Source: Plantactinospora endophytica (lineage in GTDB: Bacteria; Actinomycetota; Actinomycetes; Mycobacteriales; Micromonosporaceae). Taken from it: a stretch of DNA of 64,000 nt. Location: positions 248,001-312,000 of the forward strand of contig NZ_BONW01000039.1 of the NCBI RefSeq assembly GCF_016862915.1, in the 5' to 3' direction. Of the stretch, positions 2,075 through 18,280 are shown piece after piece. A program made the position numbers and the translations under genes. Position 1 is the first letter of the stretch. Every line of letters starts with the position of its first letter. A model generated the notes under the pieces. The model searched no databases. It was given only the letters and a program-made list of their open reading frames with translations, and was not told the DNA's origin.

Positions 2075-3424
2075 ATGACCGCCACTCCGGAGCACACCGG
2101 AACCCCGCAGCACCGCCCCGGTCCGGGCCGCGCCACCACTCCAGGCCGCGCCGACCGACCGTCCGGCGACGGTACGCCGAAAGGCCCGCTCTGGGTACTC
2201 CTGCTCGCCTCCACCCTGACCGTGCTGGCCGGGGCGGTACTGGCGCCCGTGGTCGAACTGCTCCGGTCGGACCTGGGGATCAGCACGGGCGCGGCCGGAC
2301 TGGTGCTGACCGCGCACGGGCTGTCGCTGGCCCTCGTCGGTCCCCTGGTCGGCCGGGCGATCGACCGCTGGGGCGTACCCGGACCGCTCGCCGCCGGACT
2401 CGTCCTGTACGGCCTGGCCGGTGGCGCCGGCCTGCTGATCGACGACTACGTCCCACTGCTCGCCAGCCGACTGGTGTTCGGGATCGGCGCCGCCGCCGTC
2501 TTCGCCGGCACCACCCTCGGACTGCTCGACCTGGCCGAGGGGCCGGCCCGGGACCGGATGATGGGCTGGCGCACCACCGCGATCAGCCTCGGCGGGGTGC
2601 TCTGGCCGCTGCTCGGCGGTGCCCTGGGGGCGATCTCCTGGCAGGCGCCGTTCGCCGTCTACCTGCTCGGCGTTCCGCTCGGCCTGGTCACCCTCCGAGT
2701 ACTGTCCACATCGGAGCACGACCGGCGCCGACGGACCACCGGCCCGACCCGACCGGCTTCCCTCCCGCGCCCGGTGAACCCGCCTACCGCCCGGAAAGCG
2801 TCGGCCCCCTCCGTCCCCGGCCACGGTACGCCGGTCCGCCCCGAACCACCGTCGCTCTGGCGCTCCGGACTGCTCGGCAGCTACGGGCTCCAGGCGATGG
2901 CCACCGCGCTGCTCTACGGGGTACTGGTGTTCCTACCGCCGCGCCTGGCCGAGGTCGGCGTCCGGGACAGCTTCCGGGTCGCGCTCTTCGGCGCGCTGCT
3001 CTCCCTGGTGATGAGCCTGACCGGGCTCCGCTTCGCCTGGTTCCGCGCCCGGTTCGGCGGGTCGGGTCTGCTGCGCCTCGCCTTCGGCGCCTGGACGGTG
3101 GCGCTGCTGGTCTTCGCGCTCGGCACGTCGCCGATCGTGCTGCTGGTCGCCCCGGTCGTCTTCGGATTCGGCATGGGACTGACCCTGCCGGTCCTGACGG
3201 TGCTGGTCGCCGAACAGGCCCCGCCCGGTCGGCGCGGGCAGGCGACCGCACTGCTCGGCACCGCCACCTTCGCCAGCCAGTTCGCCTCGCCGCTGCTGTT
3301 CGGCCCGGTCGAGGCCGCCACCTCGGCGAGCGGGGTCTTCCTGGTCGCCTCCGCCCTCGCCGCGCTGAGCCTGCTGGCGGTGATCGCCGCCGGGCCACGC
3401 CTCGGTGCCCGCCGTCCTCGGTAG
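2075..3424 (+). CDS. MFS transporter, drug-efflux type
   Basis: 449 aa with a ~45-residue Pro/Thr-rich cytoplasmic N-terminus followed by ~12 hydrophobic helices. The inter-helix 2-3 loop contains GPLVGRAIDRWG, the MFS motif A (GxxxDRxGxR variant), and GxGxxAxxxG-type packing follows in the SRLVFGIGAAAVFAG helix. A charged, proline-rich loop of ~65 residues splits the two six-helix halves. It is an inner-membrane proton antiporter family; the substrate is unknown. A MerR-type promoter suggests induction by a toxic compound, which fits an efflux pump. It converges on the membrane-protein gene ending at 3457. Confidence 0.85.
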   Translation: MTATPEHTGTPQHRPGPGRATTPGRADRPSGDGTPKGPLWVLLLASTLTVLAGAVLAPVVELLRSDLGISTGAAGLVLTAHGLSLALVGPLVGRAIDRWGVPGPLAAGLVLYGLAGGAGLLIDDYVPLLASRLVFGIGAAAVFAGTTLGLLDLAEGPARDRMMGWRTTAISLGGVLWPLLGGALGAISWQAPFAVYLLGVPLGLVTLRVLSTSEHDRRRRTTGPTRPASLPRPVNPPTARKASAPSVPGHGTPVRPEPPSLWRSGLLGSYGLQAMATALLYGVLVFLPPRLAEVGVRDSFRVALFGALLSLVMSLTGLRFAWFRARFGGSGLLRLAFGAWTVALLVFALGTSPIVLLVAPVVFGFGMGLTLPVLTVLVAEQAPPGRRGQATALLGTATFASQFASPLLFGPVEAATSASGVFLVASALAALSLLAVIAAGPRLGARRPR

Positions 3425-3456: not shown

Positions 3457-4044
3457 CTACCCCTGAATGGCGGGAATGACCAACTCCAGTGCACACCACC
3501 ACATCGCGGCGACCGTCACCACGATGAAGGCGACGATGTAGGTCTCGTACCACCGGTAGAAGTTGCCCAGCGTCGGTGGCGCCCGGAAGTCCGGGTGCAG
3601 GACGTCCGACAACAGTTGGCACTCTTCGTTGCGGTAGTCGAGCCAGGTCAGTACGCCGACGATCACCACCAGGACGGTGAAGGCGGCGACGACGGTCACC
3701 AGCCACAGCAGAGCGATGATGCCGGCCCGAGCGGTCGCCGGCGGCACACCCCAGTCCCGGTGGCCGACGAAGATCGCCAACGCCGCGCCGACCAGTGTGG
3801 TGGCGAGCGCCTGGTAGATCCCGAGAAAACGGTGCACGTTCTCGTTGGCGGCCTGGATCTGTTGCAGGATGTACCGGTACCGCTCCAGGTGGAACTCGAG
3901 CTGGACGGCGTCGTCCTGCGGCTCCCGGCCCTGGTACGCCTCCCGGGACCAGCGCTCGCCGGTCTGCCGGGCGCGACGTCGGAGGCCCCCGCCCCGCGAA
4001 TTCGGCAGCCGTCCCAAGTTGACCGACCGAGCTGACCGGTTCAT
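3457..4044 (-). CDS. Three-helix membrane protein coupled to the HD-HSP90 ATPase
   Basis: 195 aa from the ATG at 4044, which overlaps the stop of the upstream gene as ATGA, so translation is coupled. The first ~50 residues are basic (GGGLRRRARQ). A helical segment follows (residues ~50-75, LEFHLERYRYILQQIQAANE), then three hydrophobic segments: FLGIYQALATTLVGAALAIF, IIALLWLVTVVAAFTVLVVI, and a C-terminal YIVAFIVVTVAAMWWCALEL. The layout, a cytoplasmic helical stalk and a small membrane bundle, resembles small effector membrane proteins of bacterial conflict systems such as SLATT-type proteins, but I see no diagnostic motif. A role as membrane effector or anchor for the ATPase is inference from the coupling. 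Confidence 0.6.
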   Translation of the reverse strand: MNRSARSVNLGRLPNSRGGGLRRRARQTGERWSREAYQGREPQDDAVQLEFHLERYRYILQQIQAANENVHRFLGIYQALATTLVGAALAIFVGHRDWGVPPATARAGIIALLWLVTVVAAFTVLVVIVGVLTWLDYRNEECQLLSDVLHPDFRAPPTLGNFYRWYETYIVAFIVVTVAAMWWCALELVIPAIQG

Positions 4045-6800
4045 CCGCCGACCGCCGCTGTCACCTGCGCGGACCCGCGATCTGGACGCTGTAGCCGGAC
4101 CATCTCGATGCGCTCGGCACCGCCCCCGACCAGCGGTACGGGGCACCGGTCGTCGCCGTCCTCGTCCAGGTGCATCGGTTCCATCAGATCGAGCAGCTCA
4201 CCGAGATCGACGTTCCACATCTCCGCGATGGTGCGGACCACGATGCCGACTGAACCGAAATTGCCACTGTCCGACCACCAACCGCGAGCGTTCCACTTTG
4301 TGCCCTGCGGATCTGGGTCGGGGAAACGTTCGTCCTTCGGGCGCGGCAGAATCTCTTCCGGATACAGCCACTCCGAGTAGAGACTGACGACCAGGCAGTC
4401 CTGGGGGATCAGCAGTTCGCCACCGCCGTAGGAGACGAACCACGGGGTGTCGTCCGGCCGGTAGTGCACGTAGAACCCACCGCCAACCAGGAGGACACAG
4501 TCGCGGCCGGTCAGCCAGCCGCGCAGGCCCGCCTCGTCGAGCGCCGTGCCGTTCGACAGCGCACAGGGCAGTCGTGGCGCCACCGCCCCCAGCGCCCTGG
4601 CCAGGTTTCCGATCACCTGCCGCTGTGTCGATCCCATCCGTGAACTGCGGCTCACTCGTTCGGCCTGTGACTCGGCCCACCCGGTGAGCTGCTCGGGGTT
4701 GGCGTTCGGAAACGACCGCAGCCGGTCCGCGGTGAGAGGACTGCCGACGAAGACGCCCATCGTCTCCCGGAGAGTGTCGGACTGAAGGCCACCCACGTAG
4801 ATGTGCGACTCGCAGCCCACCCACCATCCCGCTCCTCCGGTCCCCTCCCACATCGAGGTCATCATCGCCCTGCCAATCACCTCCCCCCGCTCGTCACGGA
4901 TCTTCTCGGCCCGTTCGACGAACCGCTGACGGTAGACCTCAAGGCTGAGCCGGTGTCCGTAGCTGTCGTCGGGGCGTTGGTAGACGCGTTCGAACAGTTC
5001 CGAGTCCGAGATCGTCACCCAGTCGTCCGCGTTGACCAAGCGGACCGGCACCGGGTCGTCGGGACCCTGCACGTCGATGTGTACCCGGGCCAGCGCGCAC
5101 ATCGGCAACACCATCGCGTGCAGGCACTCGGTGTAGGTGAGTCGTTGGCTCGTGGTGCGGAACAGACCGTCGGCGGAGCGTGGGTCCGCTCGCAGACGGG
5201 CTCGTACCACGGTTCCGGGCTGGCGGAGCCATTCGGTGCGTTCGGCCGCCCGCAGCAGTGGTCGGACCGACACACCGTTGGCGAACTCCAGCACGTGGGT
5301 GTCGCGTGCGGCCTCCTCCAGCGCCAGACTACGGACGCTCACCTGGTCGGCGATCATAAAAGTGGAGAAGAAGCCGATACCGAAGCGACCGGTCGGCTGG
5401 AATCCGCTCAGTTCCGGATACTCGGTCAGCGAGTCGGCGGACCGCCACCGGGAGAATCCGAAGTCGGTCAGCGCCGATACCATGGTGTCCGGCAGCATCC
5501 CGATGCCTTGGTCGGCAACCGTCAGCCACCAGGAGCCGCCCTCCTCGGCGAGGATGACGGTGACGGTGCCGGGCGGTGTGCCTTCCCGGGCGGATCGAGC
5601 CAGCGTCGCATCGGAGGCGTTGGCGACCAACTCCCGCAGGGCCACGTCCGGCCGCTTTCCGTACAGCTTCTCGCCGCCGAGATTGCCCACGACCTTGTCG
5701 ACGTCGGTGACCCTGATCCGTGCGTCGATGGGGCGCCACCGATCGGTCTGCAGGTATCCGGCGAGGCGGTCGGGCGCGTCGGCACCAGCGACCGAACGGG
5801 CACGGAAGCGGTGGCGCTTGAGGTCGGCGCAGAGCGCGTCGACCCGGCGCAACTCGCCGTCGATCATCTGGATCGTCTCGTAGGCCAGCCACCAGGCGGG
5901 TGCCTCGGCACCGGCGAACCGTCGGGTCGAGGTGTACACGAGCCGGTCGTCGTCCAGTTGCGGACGGGTCAAACGTTCCTGGAAGACCCAGTGGTCCTCG
6001 GCCACCCCGCTGGGCCGCCGGAACGCGTGCACGTAGCTCGGCGCCCTACGGCTGTCGATGTGTGCGGCGTCGGCCAGACGCAGGATGCAGGCGATCTTCA
6101 GCCGGTCCACGGTCCACGCCGGTGGATGGTCGGGACGGGAGCCCTGCACCCGGTCCAGTTCGTGCAGTCGCCCGACGTCCCACCAGTGACTCTCGGCGAT
6201 TTCGCCGATCATACTGCCGTAGTCGAGTCGGAGACTGAGATCGGGCAGGAGGTAGTTGTCACTGCCGTCCGAGCCGATGAAGGGCGTTCTCAGTAGCTGC
6301 GGGGCTCGTTCGGCATGCCGCCGCCGCAGCAGTTCGACGAGCGCCTGCTTCTGGGCGACCGCAGCCACCTCCGCCGAATCCGCGGCCGGTTCCAGGTGCT
6401 GCAACCGCTCGGTCTCGATGGCAAGGAGACCGGGGTAGGCGGGATCGGCGATCACCTGTTCCACGCCGCCGGGATAGGCGCACAGCCCCATTCCGAGGTC
6501 GTGCATCAGGAAGGCGCCGCCGAGCACAAACGCCTCGGCGGGATTGAGCGGATAGTCGTCGCCACAGACTATCGACGCGGTGTCCCACAGGGCGTCGATG
6601 TGCGCGATGGAGTGGTCGGTGAACATCGGCATCGACAGCACGATCTCGTTGGCAAGCGGAGCCACCTGCGCTCGGAACTGTTGGTACGCGGCCCGCAGGG
6701 CCGCCCGCTGTGTCGCCCAGCAGTCCCCGGGGATCTCACCGAGCGTTCGACGCCACAACGGCGACTGCTCGTAGGACACCTGATCCGAGGCGTTGGTCAT
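4041..6800 (-). CDS. HD-domain / HSP90-type ATPase fusion protein
   Basis: 919 aa from the ATG at 6800, preceded by a GGGGAG site; an ATG eight codons upstream lacks one. Residues ~55-255 look like an HD phosphohydrolase: HSIAHID at 63-69, the HD doublet in LMHDLGMG at 100-101, RHAERAP near 161 and LADAAHID near 242-249. Residues ~360-490 are an HSP90-like GHKL ATPase: N-box LRELVANASDA (~387-397), ADQGIGM (~428-434), and GRFGIGFFSTFMIAD (~470-484), each close to HtpG. The remaining ~430 residues contain no HSP90 dimerisation domain I recognise. HSP90-like ATPases close on ATP and act as sensors or switches; HD domains cleave phosphate esters or nucleotides. It is coupled by ATGA to a small membrane protein. 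Its sequence is visibly less GC-rich than its neighbours, which suggests acquisition. Confidence 0.8.
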   Translation of the reverse strand: MTNASDQVSYEQSPLWRRTLGEIPGDCWATQRAALRAAYQQFRAQVAPLANEIVLSMPMFTDHSIAHIDALWDTASIVCGDDYPLNPAEAFVLGGAFLMHDLGMGLCAYPGGVEQVIADPAYPGLLAIETERLQHLEPAADSAEVAAVAQKQALVELLRRRHAERAPQLLRTPFIGSDGSDNYLLPDLSLRLDYGSMIGEIAESHWWDVGRLHELDRVQGSRPDHPPAWTVDRLKIACILRLADAAHIDSRRAPSYVHAFRRPSGVAEDHWVFQERLTRPQLDDDRLVYTSTRRFAGAEAPAWWLAYETIQMIDGELRRVDALCADLKRHRFRARSVAGADAPDRLAGYLQTDRWRPIDARIRVTDVDKVVGNLGGEKLYGKRPDVALRELVANASDATLARSAREGTPPGTVTVILAEEGGSWWLTVADQGIGMLPDTMVSALTDFGFSRWRSADSLTEYPELSGFQPTGRFGIGFFSTFMIADQVSVRSLALEEAARDTHVLEFANGVSVRPLLRAAERTEWLRQPGTVVRARLRADPRSADGLFRTTSQRLTYTECLHAMVLPMCALARVHIDVQGPDDPVPVRLVNADDWVTISDSELFERVYQRPDDSYGHRLSLEVYRQRFVERAEKIRDERGEVIGRAMMTSMWEGTGGAGWWVGCESHIYVGGLQSDTLRETMGVFVGSPLTADRLRSFPNANPEQLTGWAESQAERVSRSSRMGSTQRQVIGNLARALGAVAPRLPCALSNGTALDEAGLRGWLTGRDCVLLVGGGFYVHYRPDDTPWFVSYGGGELLIPQDCLVVSLYSEWLYPEEILPRPKDERFPDPDPQGTKWNARGWWSDSGNFGSVGIVVRTIAEMWNVDLGELLDLMEPMHLDEDGDDRCPVPLVGGGAERIEMVRLQRPDRGSAQVTAAVGG

Positions 6801-7077: not shown

Positions 7078-7138
7078 GACGCCTCGCCCGCGCCGAGCCG
7101 GGTGTGACCGACTGACGCCTCGCCCGCGCTCAGCCGGG
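7078..7138. repeat. Duplicated 25-bp segment across the glgB stop codon
   Basis: Two copies of a 25-base unit beginning GACGCCTCGCCCGCGC lie at 7078-7102 and 7114-7138, period 36, differing at two positions. The second copy contains the glgB stop codon (complement of 7130-7132), so the end of the gene has been duplicated downstream. Confidence 0.8.
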
Positions 7139-9238
7139 GCGGAGCCAGAGTACGCCGAGCGGCGGCACCCGCAGCGCCACCGAGGCCGGCAACCCGTGCC
7201 ACGGCTGGTCCTCGGCGGTGACCGCGCCGAGGTTGCCGACCCCCGACCCGCCGTAGCAGTCCGCGTCGGTGTTCAGGATCTCGGACCAGCGGCCGGCCAG
7301 CGGCAGCCCGATCCGGTAGCCCTCGTGCGGCAGCGCGGCGAAGTTCGCCACGCAGGCCAGCGGGGACCCGTCGGCGGCGATCCGGAGAAAGGCGACGGTG
7401 TTGTTCGCCGAGTCGTCCGAGACGATCCACCGGAAGCCGGCCGGTACGGTGTCCTGGGACCAGAGCGCCGGATGCTCCCGGTAGCCACGGTTGAGGTCGC
7501 GGAGCAGCCGCTGCACGCCGGCCCGGCCGGGGTCGTCCAGCAGGTGCCAGTCCAGCCCCCGGGTCTCGCTCCACTCCCGGTCGTCGCCGAGTTCACAGCC
7601 CATGAAGAGCAGTTGCTTGCCCGGATGCGCCCACATGTACGCCAGCAGTGCCCGTACGCCGGCCAGTTTGCGCCACTGGTCGCCGGGCATCCTGCCGAGC
7701 AGCGAGCCCTTGCCGTGCACCACCTCGTCGTGGCTGATCGGCAGCACGTAGTTCTCGCTCCAGGCGTACACCAGGGAGAAGGTCAGCTCGTTGTGGTGGT
7801 GCTGCCGGTAGATCGGGTCCTTGCCGAGGTAGTTCAGGGTGTCGTGCATCCAGCCCATGTTCCACTTGAAGCCGAAGCCCAGCCCGCCGGAGTCGGTCGA
7901 CCGGGTCACCCCCGGCCAGGCGGTGGACTCCTCGGCCACCATCAGCACACCCGGATGCTTCCGGTAGACGGTCGCGTCGACCTCCTGGAGCAGGGCGATC
8001 GCCTCCAGGTTCTCCCGACCGCCGTGCTCGTTCGGCAGCCACTCGCCGTCGTTGCGGGAGTAGTCGAGATAGAGCATCGAGGCGACCGCGTCCACCCGCA
8101 GACCGTCCACATGGAACTCTTCGCACCAGTAGAGGGCGTTCGCCACCAGGAAGTTGCGGACCTCGGGACGACCGTAGTCGAAGACGTACGTGCCCCAGTC
8201 CGGGTGCTCGCCCCGGCGCGGGTCGGGATGCTCGTAGAGCGGCGTGCCGTCGAACCGGGCCAGCGCCCAGTCGTCCCGGGGGAAGTGTGCCGGCACCCAG
8301 TCCAGCAGCACCCCGATCCCGGCGGCGTGCAGCCGGTCGACCAGGTGGCGGAAGTCGTCCGGGTCGCCGAACCGGGACGTCGGGGCGTAGTAGCCGGTCA
8401 CCTGGTAGCCCCAGGAACCGCCGAACGGGTGCTCCATCACCGGCATGAACTCCACGTGTGTGAAACCCATGTCGAGGACGTACCCGGTGAGCTGCTCGGC
8501 CAGCTCCCGGTAGGACAGGCCCGGCCGCCACGAGCCGAGGTGCACCTCGTACACGCTGATCGGCTCCTGGTGCGGCTGCCGGCGGGCCCGCCGGGCCAGC
8601 CAGTCGGCGTCCGACCACTCGTAGCCGGACCCGTCCACCACCGAGGCGGTGGCGGGCGGCACCTCGGTACGCCGGGCCAGCGGATCCGCCTTGTCCCGCC
8701 ACTGCCCGTCCCGGGACAGGATCCGGAACTTGTACCGCTGCCCGACCGCCGCCTCCGGGACGAAGATCTCCCACACTCCGCTGCGCCCGAGCGAGCGCAT
8801 CGGCCAGCCCTCGTGCGCGCCCCAGCCGGTGAAGTCGCCGACCACCCGCACACCCCGGGCGTTCGGCGCCCAGACCGCGAACGCCACCCCGCCACCGTCG
8901 GCGGGCCGGGCGCCGAGCGCCGTCCAGAGCCGCTCGTGCCGGCCCTCGGCGATCAGGTGCAGGTCGAGTTCGCCGACGGTCGGCGGATACCGGTACGGGT
9001 CGTCGCGCGGCTCGCCGCCGTCCACCACCACCCGGTAGTCCAGCACCGTGCCGGGCACCGCCGCCGCGAAGACCCCCTCGTCGTGCACCCGTTGCATGGG
9101 CTGGCGTTCCCCGCCGACCAGCAGCTCCACCGTGCCGGCGCCCCGGCGCAGCGTACGGATCACCGTCCGCTCGCCGTCCGGATGCGCGCCGAGCAGCGCG
9201 TGCGGGTCGTGTGCCGTACCGGTGATCAGCTCGTCCAT
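7130..9238 (-). CDS. glgB: 1,4-alpha-glucan branching enzyme
   Basis: 702 aa. It cuts alpha-1,4 glucan chains and rejoins them as alpha-1,6 branches. An N-terminal CBM48/E-set region ([18 protein letters not shown], residues ~120-140) precedes a GH13 barrel. The barrel has [20 protein letters not shown], the nucleophile Asp in [17 protein letters not shown], the acid/base Glu in VLMVAEEST and the ISHDEV transition-state Asp. The length is typical of GlgB. The ATG at 9238 overlaps the end of glgE by 13 bases, so the two are translated from one message. In actinobacteria GlgE makes linear maltose polymers that GlgB branches, so the order fits the pathway. Confidence is high. Confidence 0.97.
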
Positions 9239-11313
9239 CCCTGGCCCTCCGGTCCGGCGACGTTGTCGGTGCGCGCGATCTCCATGTCGGCATCCGGCGA
9301 GTCGCCGTGCCGGTGCACCGTGAAGACGTGTGCGGGGGAGAGGAACGGGTCGAGCCGTACGGCGTTGTGCTGCCCCCAGTCGTAGCGGGCGCCGGTCAGC
9401 TCGTCGTGCACGGTGAACCGCTCGTGCCAGTCGAAGCCGAGCGCCGGCATGTCCAGCACCGTGTTGCCCCACTGCACCTGGCCGGGGTCGACCGAGCAGA
9501 CCACCAGCACCGTGTTGCCGGTCAGCTCGTCCCGTTTCGACCAGCAGAGCAGCGCCGGGTTGTCGATCTCGTGGAAGACCAGGTTGCGCAGCCAGTGCAG
9601 GGCCGGATTGTCCCGCCGGATGGTGTTGAGCCGGGCCAGGAACGGCGCCAGCGACCGTCCCTCCGCCTCGGCCGCCGCCCAGTCCCGGGGCCGCAGCTCG
9701 AACTTCTCGTTGTCGAGGTACTCCTCGGCGCCGGGCCGGGCCACGTGCTCGAACAGTTCGTAGCCGGCGTAGATGCCCCAGGACGGCGAGAGCAGGCTGG
9801 CCAGGACCGCGCGAATCTTGAACATCGGCGGCCCGCAGTGCTGGAGGTGCTCGGGCAGGATGTCCGGGGTGTTCGGCCAGAAGTTCGGCCGCATGTGGTC
9901 GGCCGCGCCCACCAGCTCGGTGCAGTATTCGCGCAGCTCCGCCGGACTGGTCCGCCAGGCGAAGTAGGTGTACGACTGGGTGAAGCCGATCTTGCCGAGC
10001 CCGTGCATCACCGCCGGTCGGGTGAACGCCTCGGCCAGGAACAGCACGTCCGGGTCGTGCCGCTTGACCTCCCAGATCAGCCAGTGCCAGAAGTCGAACG
10101 GCTTGGTGTGCGGGTTGTCCACCCGGAAGATCCTGACGCCCAGCCCCACCCAGTGCAGCACCACCCGGAGCACCTCGGCCCGGATCCCGTCCGGGTCGTT
10201 GTCGAAGTTGACCGGGTAGATGTCCTGGTATTTCTTCGGCGGGTTCTCCGCGTACGCGATCGACCCGTCCGCCCGGGTGGTGAACCACTCCGGGTGCGCG
10301 GTCACCCACGGATGGTCCGGGGCGGCCTGCAACGCCAGGTCCATCGCCACCTCCAGCCCGACCTCCCCGGCGGCGGCGACGAACGCCCGGAAGTCGTCGA
10401 CCGTACCCAGGTCGGGGTGGATCGTGTCGTGCCCGCCCTCGGCCGCGCCGATCGCCCACGGCGAGCCGACGTCGTCCGGGCCGGCGACCAGGGTGTTGTT
10501 CCGGCCCTTGCGGTTGACCCGGCCGATCGGGTGGATCGGCGGCAGGTAGAGCACGTCGAAGCCCATCGCGGCAACCCCGGGGAGCCGCCCGGCGGCGGTG
10601 CGGAACGTCCCGGACCGGGCCGGCTGCCCGTCGCCCGCCAGCACCGCCCCCTCGGAGCGCGGGAAGAACTCGTACCAGGCGGAGAAGAGCGCCCTCGGCC
10701 GGTCCACCCAGATCGGCTGCTCCGGCGCGCTGGTCAGCAGCGTCCGGACCGGGTACGCCCAGAGCAGGTCGGCCAGGTCGAGCGCGGGAGAGACCCGCTC
10801 CGCGAGCCGCCGGTCACCGTCGCGCAGCGCGGCAGCGGCCTCCCGGACCCGGTCGCGCTCCTTTTCGGGTACGCCGTTGGCGGCCCGGTCCAGCAGTTCC
10901 GCGCCCTCGGTCAGGTCGTTGGCCAGCTCGGTCGGCCCCTGCCCGGCGTCGACCTTCTTGACGACGGCGTCCCGCCAGCTCAGGTAGGGATCCTCGAACG
11001 CCTGCACGGTGAAGCTCCACTCGCCCACCGCGTCCGGCCGGATGCCGGCGTGCCACCGGTCGTCGAAGTACGGACCGGGCCGCATCCGGACCACCGGCCG
11101 GGGTACGCCGTCCGGGTCGCGCCAGGCGACCTGGCAGCCCATCGCCGCGTGCCCCTCCCGGTACGACCGCGCGCTCACCGGCACCAGCTCACCGACCACG
11201 GCCTTGGCCGGGTACCGACCGCCCGCCACGGACGGCGTCACGTCTTCGATCGGGATCCGTCCACTCACCCTGCCCAACCTACTGTGAATGATCGACCCCC
11301 GCCCGTCGGACAT
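9226..11313 (-). CDS. glgE: Alpha-1,4-glucan:maltose-1-phosphate maltosyltransferase
   Basis: 695 aa. It adds maltosyl units from maltose-1-phosphate to the non-reducing end of alpha-1,4-glucan (GH13_3). Visible: N-terminal [10 protein letters not shown]...[11 protein letters not shown] typical of Glg[20 protein letters not shown], the nucleophile Asp in [18 protein letters not shown], the acid/base Glu in [12 protein letters not shown] and LPEHLQ further on. The end overlaps glgB. The start is uncertain: ATG at 11313 adds [15 protein letters not shown] without a clear ribosome-binding site and lies at the edge of a tandem duplication; an in-frame GTG at 11268 gives a start closer to family members. 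The substrate is supplied by the adjacent GT4 synthase. Confidence 0.95.
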
Positions 11314-11465: not shown

Positions 11466-12698
11466 TCAGGCGGTGGTGAGGGTGGAGCGGTAGACGGCCA
11501 GGGTCTGGGCGGCGATGGTGTCCCAGGAGAAGTGTTCGACCGCCCGGCGCCGGCCGGCCCGCCCCAGTTCGACCGCGCGCCTCGGGTCGTCCAGCAGTTC
11601 GGTGATCGCGTCGGCCAGGTCGGCCACGAAACGCTCCGGGTCGAGCGGGGTACCGGTGCCGTCGCCGGCCTGGCTGATCGGCACCAGCAGCCCGGTCGAG
11701 CCGTCCGCGACCACCTCGGGGATGCCGCCGGTCGCGGTGGCGACGACCGCCGTCTCGCAGGCCATCGCCTCCAGGTTGACGATGCCCATCGGCTCGTAGA
11801 CGGACGGGCAGACGAAGACGGTGCTGTGGCTGAGGATCTGGATCACCTCGGGCTTGGGCAGCATCTCGGCCACCCAGACCACGCCCTCCCGACTGCCCCG
11901 CAGTTCGGTGACGAGTTCCTCCACCTCGGCGGCGATCTCCGCCGTGTCCGGGGCACCGGCCAGCAGCACGAGTTGGGCCTCGGGCGGCAGTCGGCGGGCG
12001 GCCCGGAGCAGGTACGGCAGCCCCTTCTGCCGGGTGATCCGGCCGACGTACGTCACGCTGGGCCGGGCGGGGTCGATGCCGAGCCGGTCCAGCACGTCGG
12101 TGCCGGAGTCGGGAGAATACTGGTGGGTGTCGATGCCGTTGTGCACCACCCGTACCCGCTCCGGCGAGACCGCCGGATAGGCGGCCAGCAGGTCCCGCAT
12201 CATCCCGGCGGAAACCGCGATCACCGCGTCGGCGGCCTCCAGCGCGGTCCGTTCGCACCAGGACGAGAGCGCGTAGCCGCCGCCGAGCTGCTCGGCCTTC
12301 CACGGCCGCAGCGGTTCCAGGCTGTGCACGGTCACCACGTGCGGCACCCCGTGCAGCAACTTGGCGACGTGACCGGCGAGGTTGGCGTACCAGGTGTGGC
12401 TGTGCACCACGTCCGTGCCGGCGGTACCGGCGGCCATCGCCAGATCCACCCCCATGGTGCGCAGCGCGGCGTTCGCGTGCGCCAGTTCCGCCGGTTCGGG
12501 GTACGCGGTGACGCCCGGCTCGGCGTACGGGGGCTGGCGGGGTGCGCCGAAGCAGTGCACCCGGGTGTCGGCGCGGGAACGCAGTTCGCGGGCGAGGTAT
12601 TCGACGTGCACCCCGGCGCCGCCGTACACCTCCGGCGGGTACTCCCGGGTCAGCAGGTCGACCCGGAGCCGCCGGTCGTCGGGCACGGATTCGCTCAC
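11466..12698 (-). CDS. glgM: GT4 glycogen synthase / alpha-maltose-1-phosphate synthase
   Basis: 410 aa. GT4 fold with VDLLTREYPPEVYGGAGVHVE at the N-terminus, VVHSHTWYANLAGH, VVHNGIDTHQYSP, VTYVGRITRQKGLPYLL and the C-terminal E-x7-E region in SVYEPMGIVNLEAMACETAV. This is the actinobacterial GlgA/GlgM family. The GlgM activity joins ADP-glucose and glucose-1-phosphate into maltose-1-phosphate, the donor for GlgE. Neighbouring glgE, glgB and glgC support that role over classical glycogen synthase. I place the start at GTG 12698 because TAGGGT lies seven bases upstream (leaderless). An ATG at 12725 adds nine residues without a ribosome-binding site. Confidence 0.9.
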   Translation of the reverse strand: MSESVPDDRRLRVDLLTREYPPEVYGGAGVHVEYLARELRSRADTRVHCFGAPRQPPYAEPGVTAYPEPAELAHANAALRTMGVDLAMAAGTAGTDVVHSHTWYANLAGHVAKLLHGVPHVVTVHSLEPLRPWKAEQLGGGYALSSWCERTALEAADAVIAVSAGMMRDLLAAYPAVSPERVRVVHNGIDTHQYSPDSGTDVLDRLGIDPARPSVTYVGRITRQKGLPYLLRAARRLPPEAQLVLLAGAPDTAEIAAEVEELVTELRGSREGVVWVAEMLPKPEVIQILSHSTVFVCPSVYEPMGIVNLEAMACETAVVATATGGIPEVVADGSTGLLVPISQAGDGTGTPLDPERFVADLADAITELLDDPRRAVELGRAGRRRAVEHFSWDTIAAQTLAVYRSTLTTA

Positions 12699-12768
12699 AG
12701 CCGGCACCCTAGTGCAGCCCGCCATGATCCGCGCGGAGACGCTGCCAGCCCGCTGCCCGAGCAGTCGG

Positions 12769-13446
12769 TCAGGTGTCCAGCACCAGGGCGACGCCGATGG
12801 TGATCATGGTGACCGCGATCAGGGCGTCGAGGACGCGCCAGGCGACCGGGCGGGCGAAGACGCGGCCGAGCAGCCGGGCGCCGTACCCGAGCGCGGTGAA
12901 CCAGACGAGGCTGGCGAGCGCCGCCCCGGCGCCGAACGACCAGCGGCCGGACTGGCCGTGCGTGTTGGCGATCGAGCCGAGCAGCAGGACGGTGTCCAGG
13001 TAGACGTGCGGGTTGAGCCAGGTCATCGCCAGCACGGTGAGTACGGCGGTGCGCAGTGTCGAGGCGCCGCCGCCGTTGCCGGCCCGCAGGCTCTGGGTGC
13101 CGAACGCCCGACGGGCGGCCAGCAGGCCGTAGCCGACGAGGAAGGCGGTGCCGGCCCAACGGACCACGGTGAGCGCGGCCGGGGCGCGTTCGACCACCGC
13201 CCCGATCCCGGAGATGCCGGCGAGGATCAGCACGGCGTCCGAGACGGCGCAGATCGCCACGATCGGCAGCACGTGCTCGGCGCGTACGCCCTGGCGGAGC
13301 ACGTACGCGTTCTGGGCGCCGATCGCCACGATCAGCGAGAGGCCGACACCGAACCCGGCGACGAGTACGGGCAGCAGGTCGGTGGCGGCAGTGGCCGAGG
13401 CGAGAGCCACGGAGTCGGTCGCAAGGGTGGTCGGGGCAGGAGTCAC
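12769..13446 (-). CDS. lysE: LysE/ArgO-type basic amino acid exporter
   Basis: 225 aa from GTG 13446. LysE superfamily membrane protein with about six hydrophobic segments; GVGLSLIVAIGAQNAYVLRQG contains the conserved IGAQNAxVLRQG of LysE/ArgO, and MTWLNPHVYLDTVLLLGSIA holds the second conserved NPHVYLDT motif. It exports lysine and/or arginine through the inner membrane. The divergent LysG-type regulator starts 72 bases away, the classical lysE-lysG pair. GTG 13446 is preferred over ATG 13491: TAGGGT lies seven bases upstream of it, and the ATG would leave only 27 bases for two promoters and would place the operator dyad partly inside the gene. Confidence 0.9.
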   Translation of the reverse strand: MTPAPTTLATDSVALASATAATDLLPVLVAGFGVGLSLIVAIGAQNAYVLRQGVRAEHVLPIVAICAVSDAVLILAGISGIGAVVERAPAALTVVRWAGTAFLVGYGLLAARRAFGTQSLRAGNGGGASTLRTAVLTVLAMTWLNPHVYLDTVLLLGSIANTHGQSGRWSFGAGAALASLVWFTALGYGARLLGRVFARPVAWRVLDALIAVTMITIGVALVLDT

Positions 13447-13453
13447 GGGCCCG

Positions 13454-13510
13454 ACCCTAGGCAACCGGGGCGGACCACTCCAGCTAATCATTCTTACGAT
13501 TCATTAGGCT
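13454..13510. promoter_or_regulatory. Divergent lysE/lysG promoter and regulator-binding dyad
   Basis: Minus-strand TAGGGT (13454-13459) is seven bases before the lysE GTG. Plus-strand TAGGCT (13505-13510) is eight bases before the lysG ATG. Between them lies CTAAT (13484-13488) N14 ATTAG (13503-13507), an AT-rich inverted repeat in otherwise GC-rich DNA. This is the position expected for a LysR-type activator binding upstream of the lysE -35 while covering its own -10. Confidence 0.6.
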
Positions 13511-13518
13511 TGCTTAAC

Positions 13519-14409
13519 ATGGACCTCCAGTTCGAGCAGCTTCGTACCTTCGTCGCCGTGGTCGACCACGGGTCGTTCGAGGCGGCGGCCCGGCGGCTGC
13601 ACGTCACCCCCTCGGCGATCAGCCAGCGGATGAAGGCGCTGGAGAGCACCGTCGGTCGGGTGCTGGTCGAGCGGGGCCGGCCCACCCGGCCCACCCCGTC
13701 CGGCCAGATCGTGTTGCGGCTGGCCAGACAGGTCGCACTGCTCGCCACCGACGCGCTACAGGAGCTGGGGCAGGACTCGGCCGAGCCGGCCGAGTTCAGC
13801 CGAATTCCGATCGTGGTCAACGGGGACTCGCTGAACACCTGGGTACTGCCGGCGCTGGCGGTGGCCGCCCGGGAGCGGATCTGTGTCGACGTGTACCGCG
13901 AGGACCAGGACCATTCCGTCGAACTGCTCCGCCGGGGTACGGCGATGGCGGCGGTCACCTCCGCGTCCCGGCCCGTCCAGGGCTGCGTGGTACGCCCGCT
14001 CGGCCGGATGCGCTACCGCCCGATGGCCAGTCCCGAGTTCCTCCGGACCTGGCTGCCGGACGGCCCGACGGTCGAGGCACTGTCCCGGGCGCCGATCGTG
14101 GTCTTCGACCGCCGGGACGACCTACAGGAGCGCTACCTCCGGCGACGGTCCCGCCGCGCCTGGAACCCGCCACGCAGTTACATCCCGTCCTCCGGCGACT
14201 TCCCGGAGGCGATCCGGCTCGGGCTGGGCTGGGGCATGATGCCGCCCCAGCAGATCGACCGGTACCCGGCCGGCAGCCTGGTGCCGATCGACCCGGCGGC
14301 GGTGGTCGAGGTGCCGCTCTACTGGCAGCAGTGGCGGCTCGACTCCCGGCTCCTCGGCGTACTCGCCGACGCCGTCGCCGTCGCCGCAGCCGAGGCACTC
14401 GACCAGTAG
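13519..14409 (+). CDS. lysG: LysR-family regulator of the lysE exporter (ArgP/LysG type)
   Basis: 296 aa. N-terminal winged helix-turn-helix MDLQFEQLRTFVAVVDHGSF with AARRLHVTPSAISQRMKALE as the recognition region, typical of ArgP (IciA)/LysG; the C-terminal ~200 residues form the two-lobed effector domain. In Corynebacterium LysG binds lysine, arginine or histidine and switches on lysE. Divergent placement beside lysE supports the same job. The last codons and stop lie inside a 36-base tandem duplication, so the C-terminal VAAAEALDQ may differ between strains. Confidence 0.9.
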   Translation: MDLQFEQLRTFVAVVDHGSFEAAARRLHVTPSAISQRMKALESTVGRVLVERGRPTRPTPSGQIVLRLARQVALLATDALQELGQDSAEPAEFSRIPIVVNGDSLNTWVLPALAVAARERICVDVYREDQDHSVELLRRGTAMAAVTSASRPVQGCVVRPLGRMRYRPMASPEFLRTWLPDGPTVEALSRAPIVVFDRRDDLQERYLRRRSRRAWNPPRSYIPSSGDFPEAIRLGLGWGMMPPQQIDRYPAGSLVPIDPAAVVEVPLYWQQWRLDSRLLGVLADAVAVAAAEALDQ

Positions 14410-14605: not shown

Positions 14606-15838
14606 ATGTCAGCCAAGGTCCTCGCGATTGTCCTGGCCGGAGGAGAGGGCAAGCGACTGATGCCCCTGACCGCCGACCGGGCCAAACCGGCCGTCCCGTT
14701 CGGCGGCATGTACCGCATGATCGATTTTGTGCTGTCCAACCTGGCCAATGGCGGGTTCCTGAAGATCGTGGTGCTGACCCAGTACAAGTCGCACTCGCTG
14801 GACCGGCACGTCACCAAGACCTGGCGGATGTCGAACCTGCTCGGCAACTACGTGACTCCGGTGCCGGCACAGCAGCGGCGCGGGCCGTGGTGGTTCGCCG
14901 GCTCGGCGGACGCGATCTACCAGAGCTTCAACCTGATCAACGACGAGCAGCCGGACTACGTCATCGTGTTCGGCGCCGACCACATCTACCGGATGGACCC
15001 CCGGCAGATGCTGGACGACCACATCGCCTCCGGCGCCGGGGTGACGGTCGCCGGCATCCGCCAGCCGCTGGCCGCCGCCGACCAGTTCGGGGTGATCGAG
15101 GTGGGCGGGGACGGCCGGCGGATCCGGGCCTTCCGGGAGAAGCCGACCGACGCGAAGGGGCTGCCGGACGCGCCGGACGAGATCTACGCGTCGATGGGCA
15201 ACTACGTCTTCAGCACCAAGGTGCTCTGCGAGGCGGTGGAGACCGACGCGGCCGACAAGGCCAGCAAGCACGACATGGGCGGCAGCATCATCCCGATGCT
15301 GGTCGAGCGGGGCGAGGCCAACGTCTACGACTTCCGGGACAACGAGGTGCCGGGCAGCACCGACCGGGACCGGGCGTACTGGCGGGACGTGGGGACGCTC
15401 GACTCGTTCTACGAGGCGCACATGGACCTGATCGCCGTACACCCGGTCTTCAACCTCTACAACTACGAGTGGCCGATCTACACCGACCATCCGCCGTGGC
15501 CGCCGGCCAAGTTCGTGCACGGGCTGGAGGAGCGGGTCGGCCGGGCGGTGGAGTCGATGATCTCCCCGGGCGTGGTGGTCTCGGGCGCCCTGGTGGAGAA
15601 CTCGGTCGTCTCGCCGAATGTCCGGGTGCACTCCTGGGCCCACGTGGAAGGCTCGGTGGTGATGGAGGGAGTGGAGATCGGCCGGCACGCCGTCGTCCGC
15701 AACGCCATCCTGGACAAGAACGTGGTGGTGCCGGAGGGCGCGGAGATCGGCGTCGACCTGGCCCGGGACCGCGAGCGGTACACGGTCTCCGACCGTGGCA
15801 TCGTGGTCGTGGGCAAGGGCCAGCGCATCGAGCCCTGA
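14606..15838 (+). CDS. glgC: Glucose-1-phosphate adenylyltransferase
   Basis: 410 aa. Makes ADP-glucose from glucose-1-phosphate and ATP, the committed donor for bacterial alpha-glucan. [18 protein letters not shown] is the nucleotide-binding loop with [10 protein letters not shown] next to it; [15 protein letters not shown] holds the metal-binding Asp, FREKP and [17 protein letters not shown] are conserved GlgC segments, and the C-terminal ~110 residues form the left-handed beta-helix regulatory domain ([20 protein letters not shown]). Length matches actinobacterial GlgC. It is followed by pgm after a 72-base gap, so both ends of the ADP-glucose supply route are together. Confidence 0.97.
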
Positions 15839-15910
15839 CCCGTCGGCGACCACCTCGGGATCCGGCCGCACCCGGGTCCCCTGCCCACACCCGTGCCAGA
15901 TGGAGGTCAC

Positions 15911-17557
<1,647 letters not shown>

Positions 17558-17588
17558 CCGGACCGCTCCGCTGGGCCGACACCGCCCC

Positions 17589-17676
17589 GCCTCGACTGCG
17601 GCGCCGCTTCGGCGGGCAGCGCTGCGCCTCGACTGCGGCGGTGCCTGGGCCGGAGCGCCGCGCCTCGACTGCGGCG
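17589..17676. repeat. Three tandem 36/37-bp units downstream of pgm
   Basis: The 15-mer GCCTCGACTGCGGCG starts at 17589, 17626 and 17662; the bases between the copies are partly conserved (GGTGCCT follows the last two). The array lies ~30 bases after the pgm stop in non-coding DNA. Confidence 0.8.
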
Positions 17677-17705
17677 GTGCCTCGGTCGGCAGCGCCGCCA
17701 GCGCC

Positions 17706-17761
17706 GGCATATGTCCGAGTACGGAAGATGCCACAGAGGCATAACTATGCCTGAGAGGCAT
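17706..17761. repeat. Palindromic element, copy 1
   Basis: GGCATATGTCC (17706-17716), an 11-base spacer, then ATGCCACAGAGGCAT (17728-17742), four bases and ATGCCTGAGAGGCAT (17747-17761). Each 15-mer has ATGCC...GGCAT arms. The same architecture occurs in inverted orientation at 48773-48827. It lies between the pgm 3' repeats and the convergent gene ending at 17813, where an extragenic palindrome could fold in RNA or be bound by protein. Confidence 0.75.
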
Positions 17762-17812
17762 GTCCCTCGGACGACATCTGTCCCGGGCCGGCGGCCAGGC
17801 CGAGCCCGGAGG

Positions 17813-18280
17813 TCAGGGTGGCCCGCCGGAGGGAGAAGCAGCCGGCTCCGGCCAGCGGTCACCGGCGTCGAGCCGCTTGCGCAGCAGAGCGGCCAGCGGG
17901 ATCGACTGGCCGTCCGGGCCGCCCTCGCCGACGACCAGCTTCGGCGGTTGCGGCGCGGGAGTCGCCCCGGTCAGCCGGGCGCGCAGGCTGGTCGGCACCG
18001 TCAGCAGGTAGAAGTTTCCGGCGGCGTCGACCGCGTGCACCCGGGCCAGGTCGAGGTACCAGCCGGTGAGCCGGGTGCGGTAGCGGCTACGGCCGTTGTA
18101 GGCGAGCGCCCTCAGCCGGGTCTGCCGCAGCCCCCGTTCTCGGGCCTGCGCGGTGAACGCCGCGACGAGTTCCCGCGCCTGCTCGTGCTCGGCCTCCCGG
18201 CGACGCTGCTCGGCCAGTGCCCGGGCCGCGATCGCCTGCCGCCGTTGCTCCGCCCAGTCCTCCGAGCCGTCCTGCCGCAT
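17813..18280 (-). CDS. Conserved-looking cytoplasmic protein of unknown function
   Basis: 155 aa. The first ~60 residues are strongly helical and charged (AEQRRQAIAARALAEQRRRE), likely a coiled coil. A middle region follows, with ARERGLRQTRLRALAYNGRS and a compact beta-like stretch (RTRLTGWYLDLARVHAVDAAGNFYLLTVP). The tail ends LAALLRKRLDAGDRWPE. No signal peptide or membrane segment and no motif I recognise. The ATG at 18280 is preceded by TACCGT six bases upstream, a leaderless arrangement. It follows the type VII-like cassette on the same strand after a 73-base gap but has its own promoter signal. Confidence 0.7.
   Translation of the reverse strand: MRQDGSEDWAEQRRQAIAARALAEQRRREAEHEQARELVAAFTAQARERGLRQTRLRALAYNGRSRYRTRLTGWYLDLARVHAVDAAGNFYLLTVPTSLRARLTGATPAPQPPKLVVGEGGPDGQSIPLAALLRKRLDAGDRWPEPAASPSGGPP

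Follow-up and report, generated by a model that had tools for sequence, protein, structure and literature searches.

HD-CE domains were reportedly predicted by Nicastro, Burroughs, Iyer and Aravind, in NAR in 2023, to be immune effectors that target or degrade nucleotides and are coupled to HSP90 modules. The abstract of that work is said to name Calcineurin-CE, HD-CE and PRTase-CE, and to present modules related to HSP90 and HSP70 as STAND-domain analogues. The Pfam names PF24391 (HD-CE), PF24401 (iHD-CE) and PF24410 (wHTH-Hsp90_Na associated) presumably go back to the same work. To our knowledge, the HD-CE-HSP90 class has so far been a prediction. Here we describe a member of this class that is encoded together with a small membrane protein in Plantactinospora endophytica, within a stretch of 64,000 nucleotides (contig NZ_BONW01000039.1, positions 248,001 to 312,000, forward strand). 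This whole stretch is called the window, and coordinates refer to it unless another locus is named.

In phage lambda, rexAB lies behind the CI repressor gene, and phage RIIA, a protein of the GHKL/HSP90 type, blocks Rex exclusion. In plants and animals, NLR sensors work in partnership with chaperones. Two further systems are similar in part. Clover, which consists of the HD dNTPase CloA and the nucleotidyltransferase CloB, was reported in Nicastro et al. 2023 and, according to excerpts of a later paper, was then shown to be anti-phage (PMC12265719). VcSduA of Shedu was also shown to be anti-phage, and the excerpted text proposes that its GHKL ATPase domain controls the fused effector (PMC12137116).

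We propose that the two genes in the window are probably a horizontally moving conflict system, most likely an anti-phage one, in which an HSP90-type sensor would switch an HD-CE nucleotidase. A role in conflict or defence is well supported as a prediction from sequence and context, on the strength of the invariant residues, the patchy presence, a near-empty site, the linkage of the two genes in another genus (g104, probably Streptomyces) and carriage on viral contigs. A preliminary description of the locus had put it forward as such a candidate. Patchiness, linkage and viral-contig carriage upheld this, and the action against phages is what we infer from them.

The gene pair and the large protein

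The large gene occupies 4041..6800 on the minus strand (ATG at 6800, stop ending at 4041) and encodes 919 amino acids (P0001). The partner gene follows on the same strand at 3457..4044 (ATG at 4044, stop ending at 3457) and encodes 195 amino acids (P0002). The reading frames of the two genes overlap by an ATGA stop/start at 4041..4044 (minus strand), and the same overlap was present in a Nonomuraea homologue (L021, 12754-12757). The preliminary description had given these positions, lengths and the overlap exactly to the base. It had also called the pair less GC-rich than its neighbours, and this was the case: the G+C content was 67.4 % in the pair versus 72.6 % in the rest of the window, and no value as low was obtained in 607 overlapping segments of equal length.

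The HD-like domain suspected in the N-terminal part was identified by Pfam match and alignments as HD-CE, at residues 58-319 (5844..6629, minus strand; E 2.8e-54; 185 bits, cut-off 27). It is followed by a linker, an HSP90-type ATPase at about residues 367-578 (5067..5702, minus strand; profile-profile match and alignments) and a C-terminal part to residue 919. When a profile built from 12 P0001 homologues was compared with one built from seven HSP90-family proteins, residues 367-578 matched with a probability of 99.7 % (E 1.7e-25), as expected from the HSP90-type GHKL ATPase originally proposed. Pfam HATPase_c_3 was matched at residues 385-496 (E 6.5e-7).

The family was aligned in three sets of 9, 12 and 10 rows, with 21 distinct sequences in all, that of the window included. 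In the HD-CE domain, H63, H67, H100-D101, R159, H162, H205, R241, D244 and R252 were invariant in 21 of 21 sequences. The preliminary description had named a lack of conservation of the HD metal residues as one finding that would refute it, and the histidines and aspartates of this set were all retained. HD domains generally follow an H...HD...D pattern, on which the metal-binding histidines of P0001 may be assigned. In the ATPase, every aligned row kept the residues of three motifs: RELVANASDA (E390, N394, D397), DQGIGM (D430, G432, G434, M435) and GRFGIG (G474, G476). These invariant residues were kept even in proteins about 20 % identical to P0001. This showed that the HD and ATP sites of the family are under strong constraint.

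P0001 was matched by the NCBIfam HSP90 family protein model PRK14083 at E 2.5e-17 with 62.6 bits, against a cut-off of 455, and by the HtpG equivalog model with 55.4 bits, against a cut-off of 371. The source genome contained two further HSP90-type matches. A plain duplicate of HtpG was ruled out by the scores far under the equivalog cut-offs and by these separate matches.

The AlphaFold model of P0001, built with 10 sequences, had a mean predicted local distance difference test score (pLDDT) of 77.6 and a predicted template-modelling score of 0.61. Its first PDB matches in Foldseek were chains of HtpG, HSP90 and TRAP1 (best E 5.4e-10), aligned over about 380-500 columns with a root mean square deviation of about 6-18. 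The match of the sequence profiles stopped at residue 578, short of a possible middle-domain-like part; judging from the model, the C-terminal part of P0001 perhaps contains such an HSP90 middle-domain-like part.

One larger protein was seen in genome G669 (L013, 6100-11049, minus strand). It is 1649 amino acids long and contains a caspase-like domain, an iHD-CE/HD-CE match and a C-terminal wHTH-Hsp90_Na-associated domain, and it also matches the HSP90 part of P0001. From its domain matches, it is a related protein with a putative peptidase-like effector.

The membrane partner and its linkage to the large gene

Three hydrophobic segments were found in P0002, with centres near residues 83, 119 and 180. 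Its AlphaFold model (mean pLDDT 77) contained three long helices, at 42-94, 102-148 and 167-194, and was poor in the first 40 residues. The three hydrophobic helices of the preliminary description were therefore recovered. Helices 1 and 2 of the model reached past the membrane, and the N-terminal region was basic. Alignment of 13 members of the partner family revealed two conserved stretches, ERYxxxLQQxxxxNEN ahead of the first transmembrane helix (TM1) and WxDYRxEEC...FRxxP...RWxE between TM2 and TM3. These motifs outside the membrane would lie on the cytosolic side.

P0002 did not reach the cut-off of DUF2157 (PF09925; 17.2 bits against 32.4). DUF2157 was matched at E<=0.1 by 10 of the 13 family members, the best at 1.1e-5, and a distant link to this family is possible by sequence. 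Nor was the cut-off of SLATT reached (P0002 against SLATT_4, E 0.41, 10.5 bits against 55), and no SLATT match was found at E 0.1 among the 13 members. A profile search of the PDB with the 13-member alignment produced 0 matches at E<=0.1, and Foldseek produced none for P0002 at E<=0.001. SLATT or another named effector was ruled out as the identity of the partner by the profile scans of P0002 and the 13 members. On these comparisons, the partner appears to be a new family without a named match, which accompanies two HD-CE-HSP90 lineages that are deeply separated. The preliminary description had known of no named system with exactly these two parts; HD-CE itself is a named Pfam family.

In genus g104, the partner profile detected 10 loci in 9 of 295 genomes, and all 10 adjoined a gene of the HD-CE-HSP90 family. 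Together with the window and Nonomuraea, searches with the partner only led to such a neighbour at 12 of 12 loci. The relative arrangements were of four kinds: downstream, upstream, convergent and divergent. In six g104 loci (L036, L038, L039, L040, L042 and L043) the partner lay 9 bp upstream of the large gene, and in L045 it lay 50 bp upstream of a large-gene remnant that retains the HD part and a short C-terminal fragment. The two genes were tail to tail in L044. In L037 and L041 the partner was about 0.1 kb upstream of an HD-CE-HSP90 protein of 1020-1060 amino acids that belongs to another lineage, and in Streptomyces NRRL S-646 (L020) it was 60 bp upstream of a protein of that lineage. 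Downstream partners were found in Nonomuraea, with the ATGA overlap as in the window, in G318 (L011; 44 bp) and in a Pseudonocardiales metagenome-assembled genome (L019; 364 bp).

The partners in L020, L037 and L041 were 57-63 % identical to P0002, and their large proteins were about 20-25 % identical to P0001. The large proteins of L020 and L041 consisted of HD-CE and HATPase by Pfam. Across nine pairs, the distance matrices of the two proteins were correlated with r 0.94, a value matched by 1 of 5000 permutations, and one that shared descent alone would also give. Among L040, L042 and L043, the ratio of nonsynonymous to synonymous substitution rates was 0.16-0.20 for the large gene and 0.16-0.28 for the small gene, consistent with purifying selection on both genes in these related g104 pairs. 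Between the window's large gene and L018 the synonymous changes were saturated. The side-by-side recurrence in other genomes and the purifying selection on both genes indicated that the pair is more than a chance association. Chance neighbourhood of the two genes was ruled out by the recurrent linkage across the g104 loci.

In two g104 loci (L036 in G915:C70 and L045 in G717) both members of the pair were damaged together. One had an internal stop in the partner and a split large gene, and the other had truncated genes.

This joint damage, and the gene overlap in the window and Nonomuraea, could be expected from a selfish pair of the toxin-antitoxin type, in which the membrane protein would restrain or neutralize an HD-CE-HSP90 toxin. 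Many copies of the large gene lack the partner, which speaks against it, and we hold a toxin-antitoxin role to be very unlikely.

Distribution, mobility and genomic surroundings

The whole-genome searches scored the best few candidates per genome (e.g. 3, 8 or 11), and absences hold at that depth. The large gene was scored at 3 candidates per genome in the 295 g104 genomes, and the partner at 8 in 396 genomes and 11 in the 295. At E<=1e-30 the large gene was found in 1 of 61 relatives, which was the window's own genome, and in 0 of six genomes of the same genus; this last absence concerns the large gene, P0002 not having been searched there one by one. Within the order, 2 of 298 genomes had it at 1e-25. 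For HD-CE at 1e-15, the counts were 6 among 396 genomes from the phylum and 0 among 14 control genomes, and the partner profile detected only the window's own genome among the 396. In the 295 g104 genomes there were eight copies of the 900-amino-acid type with the N-terminal part (G734, G975, G833, G806, G810, G980 and the damaged G915:C70 and G717), and the partner adjoined all of them. A search of E. coli genomes by DNA gave no match.

In the window, the pair lies between glgB (7130-9328, minus strand, ending at 7130), which is upstream, and a convergent major facilitator superfamily (MFS) transporter gene (2075-3424, ending at 3424). In a genome of the same genus (G001), the MFS gene and glgB ended about 80 bp apart, leaving a near-empty site. 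In another (G003), glgB came 64 bp after a gene whose place in the window is on the far side of the MFS gene, and at the junction other sequence took up about 1 kb in G004 and about 0.3 kb in G005. Across the genus the junction took different forms, with a spacing of about 80 bp, with one of about 1 kb, or with no MFS gene detected, and from these differences it may be a small variable site.

The large protein was found on nine viral contigs, with 33-38 % identity in the best segment. About seven of these are distinct, since L048/L049 and L052/L053 are near-copies by appearance. The search returns viral contigs only, and the nine loci are uninformative on the frequency in chromosomes. A CI-type repressor (PHROG phrog_4) was upstream on all four contigs scanned (L047, L048, L050 and L052). 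A repressor gene was directly upstream, at 33-76 bp, in five of the nine loci (L048, L049, L050, L052 and L053), of which three were included in the scan; in L047 the CI-type repressor was 923 bp away, beyond another open reading frame. The large gene in the window is not placed behind a phage repressor. An integrase was located 3.2 kb from the large gene in L051. In L046 a divergent gene 333 bp away encoded a 161-amino-acid three-helix protein, which matched the partner family at E 6e-10 to 1.5e-15 with 22-32 % identity. Viral scans with the partner gave none in one case and only the L046 contig in another, and a viral scan with the L046 large protein returned the same contig only.

The place behind a CI-type repressor, often taken by the large gene on viral contigs, is that of lambda rexAB, and the association of the partner family with two deeply separated HD-CE-HSP90 lineages is as swappable effectors are. 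Both could point to a system like Rex, in which the HSP90/HD protein would be the sensor and signal modulator, its HD domain making or destroying a signal that gates the three-helix protein, and the latter would permeabilize the membrane and kill. However, the partner family was not found at eight of the nine viral loci, so that the large protein would act alone there, and the partner had no match among solved proteins by profile (E<=0.1) or by fold (E<=0.001). We regard a membrane effector of this kind as rather unlikely.

At L051 (7564-8307, minus strand), a different protein of 247 amino acids with three hydrophobic segments was encoded convergently about 0.4 kb behind the partnerless large gene. 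The partner profile did not match it; it is possibly an alternative partner.

Among plasmid records searched with P0001, the best 40 of 208 were considered, and only those of Nonomuraea, Zymomonas and a Rhizobium fragment (residues 10-138) extended into the HD part. Phage records searched with P0001 gave 23 records, of which the best 20 all covered only the ATPase region, and no phage record matched P0002. Plasmid pZMOB03 of Zymomonas mobilis (L022) carried a copy of the large gene without the partner (11645-14164). About 1 kb downstream was a TIR-domain gene (15205-17919), whose product has by eye a STAND-like middle and a repeat end, and a RelB/YafQ-type pair was present elsewhere on the plasmid. 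In the plasmid of Rhizobium sp. WYJ-E13 (L023, 7965-9594), an HD-CE-type start corresponding to P0001 residues 10-138 ran directly into a frame that, on inspection by eye, resembles a transposase, and this copy appears to be interrupted.

These observations bear on a stress-response or protein-quality module, in which an HD-bearing variant of HSP90 would serve a membrane client and be spread by gene transfer with no part in defence. The true HSP90-type ATPase in P0001, the metabolic genes that adjoin the pair on the chromosome in the window, and the position of several g104 pairs beside metG and TerF-like genes would suit such a module. The patchy presence, the near-empty site, the carriage on viral contigs and a plasmid, and the two other HSP90-type matches in the genome would not, and we consider it improbable.

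The pairs beside metG, the methionyl-tRNA synthetase gene, and TerF-like vWA genes were those of L039, L040, L042, L043 and L045. Their recurrence there suggests a shared genomic region.

Defence genes in the surroundings of the homologues were surveyed with PADLOC at E<=1e-8. Around 14 loci, 115 of 127 called genes were scanned (12 outer genes of L039, L042, L043 and L045 were left out). Twenty of the 115 were checked one by one, and the families PDC-S07 and SspH were not placed on a gene. The neighbours included a SAVED/HNH-type effector N-terminus at the Nonomuraea pair, HNH and PDC-S27 genes at L036, a LeoA-like dynamin at L045, a GajA-like ATPase at L044 and a HEAT-repeat protein at L038. 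Several of the matched models are broad. With six to eight matches among the 115 genes, the surroundings are mildly, not strikingly, defensive. The preliminary description had called for a survey of the homologues' neighbours for defence genes; some were there, in small numbers.

Proposed mechanism and comparison with known systems

In the explanation that we favour, a mobile two-gene conflict system, the HSP90-type ATPase of P0001 would be an ATP-driven sensor switch, a role played elsewhere by STAND ATPases. An invader would trigger the ATP-driven closing of an HSP90-like dimer, and the closed dimer would turn on the fused HD-CE domain. The activated domain would hydrolyze nucleotides or a related phosphoester, and infection or growth would be stopped. 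The partner would bind P0001 through its ERYxxxLQQxxxxNEN and WxDYRxEEC...FRxxP motifs and would be either a membrane anchor for P0001 or a second, membrane-acting effector. The gene structure, domains, conserved catalytic and ATP-site residues, linkage, patchiness and viral-contig carriage are observed; the dimer, the phage trigger, the nucleotide substrate, the topology and role of the partner and the order of events are inferred.

Several points weigh against this explanation. The anti-phage activity itself is a conjecture from context. The neighbours of the pair in the window are metabolic genes, and near the homologues 22 PADLOC families were matched, each by one gene, with six to eight genes in total. 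Of the components in PADLOC-DB 2.0.0, just two were matched by P0001, weakly and through the shared ATPase domain: REase_II (3.4e-4) and TmtA (1.8e-3). P0002 matched nothing there. The TM2-TM3 loop of P0002 is acidic, in poor agreement with the positive-inside rule. Among the viral loci, L046 alone yielded the partner, which was also not found beside the large genes of L018 (67 % identical), L012 (itself only 624 amino acids) and L022; in L012, L018, L022 and L047-L054, the partner profile found nothing with E below 4. It was likewise not found in the g104 genomes G991 (L079) and G847 (L080), which carry the 1030-amino-acid type, or in G894, where just a C-terminal part of the large gene was matched. 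L079 and L080 represent a partnerless 1030-amino-acid lineage, closely related to partnered copies. On a 25-row tree, the presence of the partner required at least four changes, which suggested that the two parts were joined or parted repeatedly.

The copies without the partner (L018, L012, L022, eight viral loci, G991 and G847) indicated that the large protein does not require it. With so many of them, the large protein must function alone, and the HD domain is likelier than the membrane protein to be the main effector. The preliminary description had accepted that constant housekeeping contexts, without defence islands and without the partner, would count against a defence role. The partnerless homologues and the metabolic neighbours in the window leaned that way; the patchiness, the near-empty site, the viral and plasmid carriage and the 12 of 12 partner loci leaned the other.

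A bolder proposal would combine prophage-borne immunity of the Rex kind, with an HSP90 sensor and a three-helix membrane effector, with RIIA proteins that act as HSP90-like decoys against the whole class. In a viral fold search with P0001, nine of the best 50 matches were RIIA-named proteins (ranks 7, 9, 10, 12, 14, 23, 27, 31 and 43). Topoisomerases and other GHKL proteins were matched as well, and the RIIA matches may reflect only the common ATPase fold. With these topoisomerase matches, and query-normalized TM-scores of about 0.2, we regard the proposal as a long shot. If it were true, an old puzzle would gain a test.

Compared with lambda RexAB, the pair would likewise join a sensor to a small membrane protein, and several relatives of the large gene on viral contigs, though not the window gene, lie behind a repressor; the difference is that the partner is rare on those contigs. 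General library scans gave no match of P0001 or P0002 to RexA or RexB, the presence of models for these in the libraries not having been checked. The HtpG/HSP90 chaperones share the N-terminal ATPase with P0001, whose model is HSP90-like, but P0001 carries HD-CE in front and scores far below the PRK14083 and HtpG cut-offs. Clover resembles the pair in its two genes and in the HD-fold nucleotidase as anti-phage effector; its second protein is a nucleotidyltransferase, and the excerpts describe no HSP90 module or membrane protein (PMC12265719). Shedu VcSduA resembles P0001 in that a GHKL-family ATPase is proposed to control the fused effector; there the effector is a PD-(D/E)xK nuclease, and the excerpted text describes no membrane partner (PMC12137116).

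The closest relatives are the HD-CE effectors of Nicastro et al., which like P0001 have HD-CE and an HSP90-type module in one protein. The HD-CE/HSP90 half of the pair is not new, and P0001 is a member of a class already predicted to be defensive. What appears to be new is the linked three-helix family and, in relatives, the rex-like position behind phage repressors. Among the matches listed from the open-licence literature, no description was found of the pair, the linked membrane family or this position. The locus would be a compact two-gene version of such systems. Its partner recurs in settings that range from chromosomes of actinomycetes to a viral contig, and the existence of partnered and partnerless copies makes the contribution of each part directly testable. 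If true, an HSP90 that serves as immune sensor with its effector joined to it would be a one-polypeptide bacterial counterpart of the NLR chaperone-sensor partnership.

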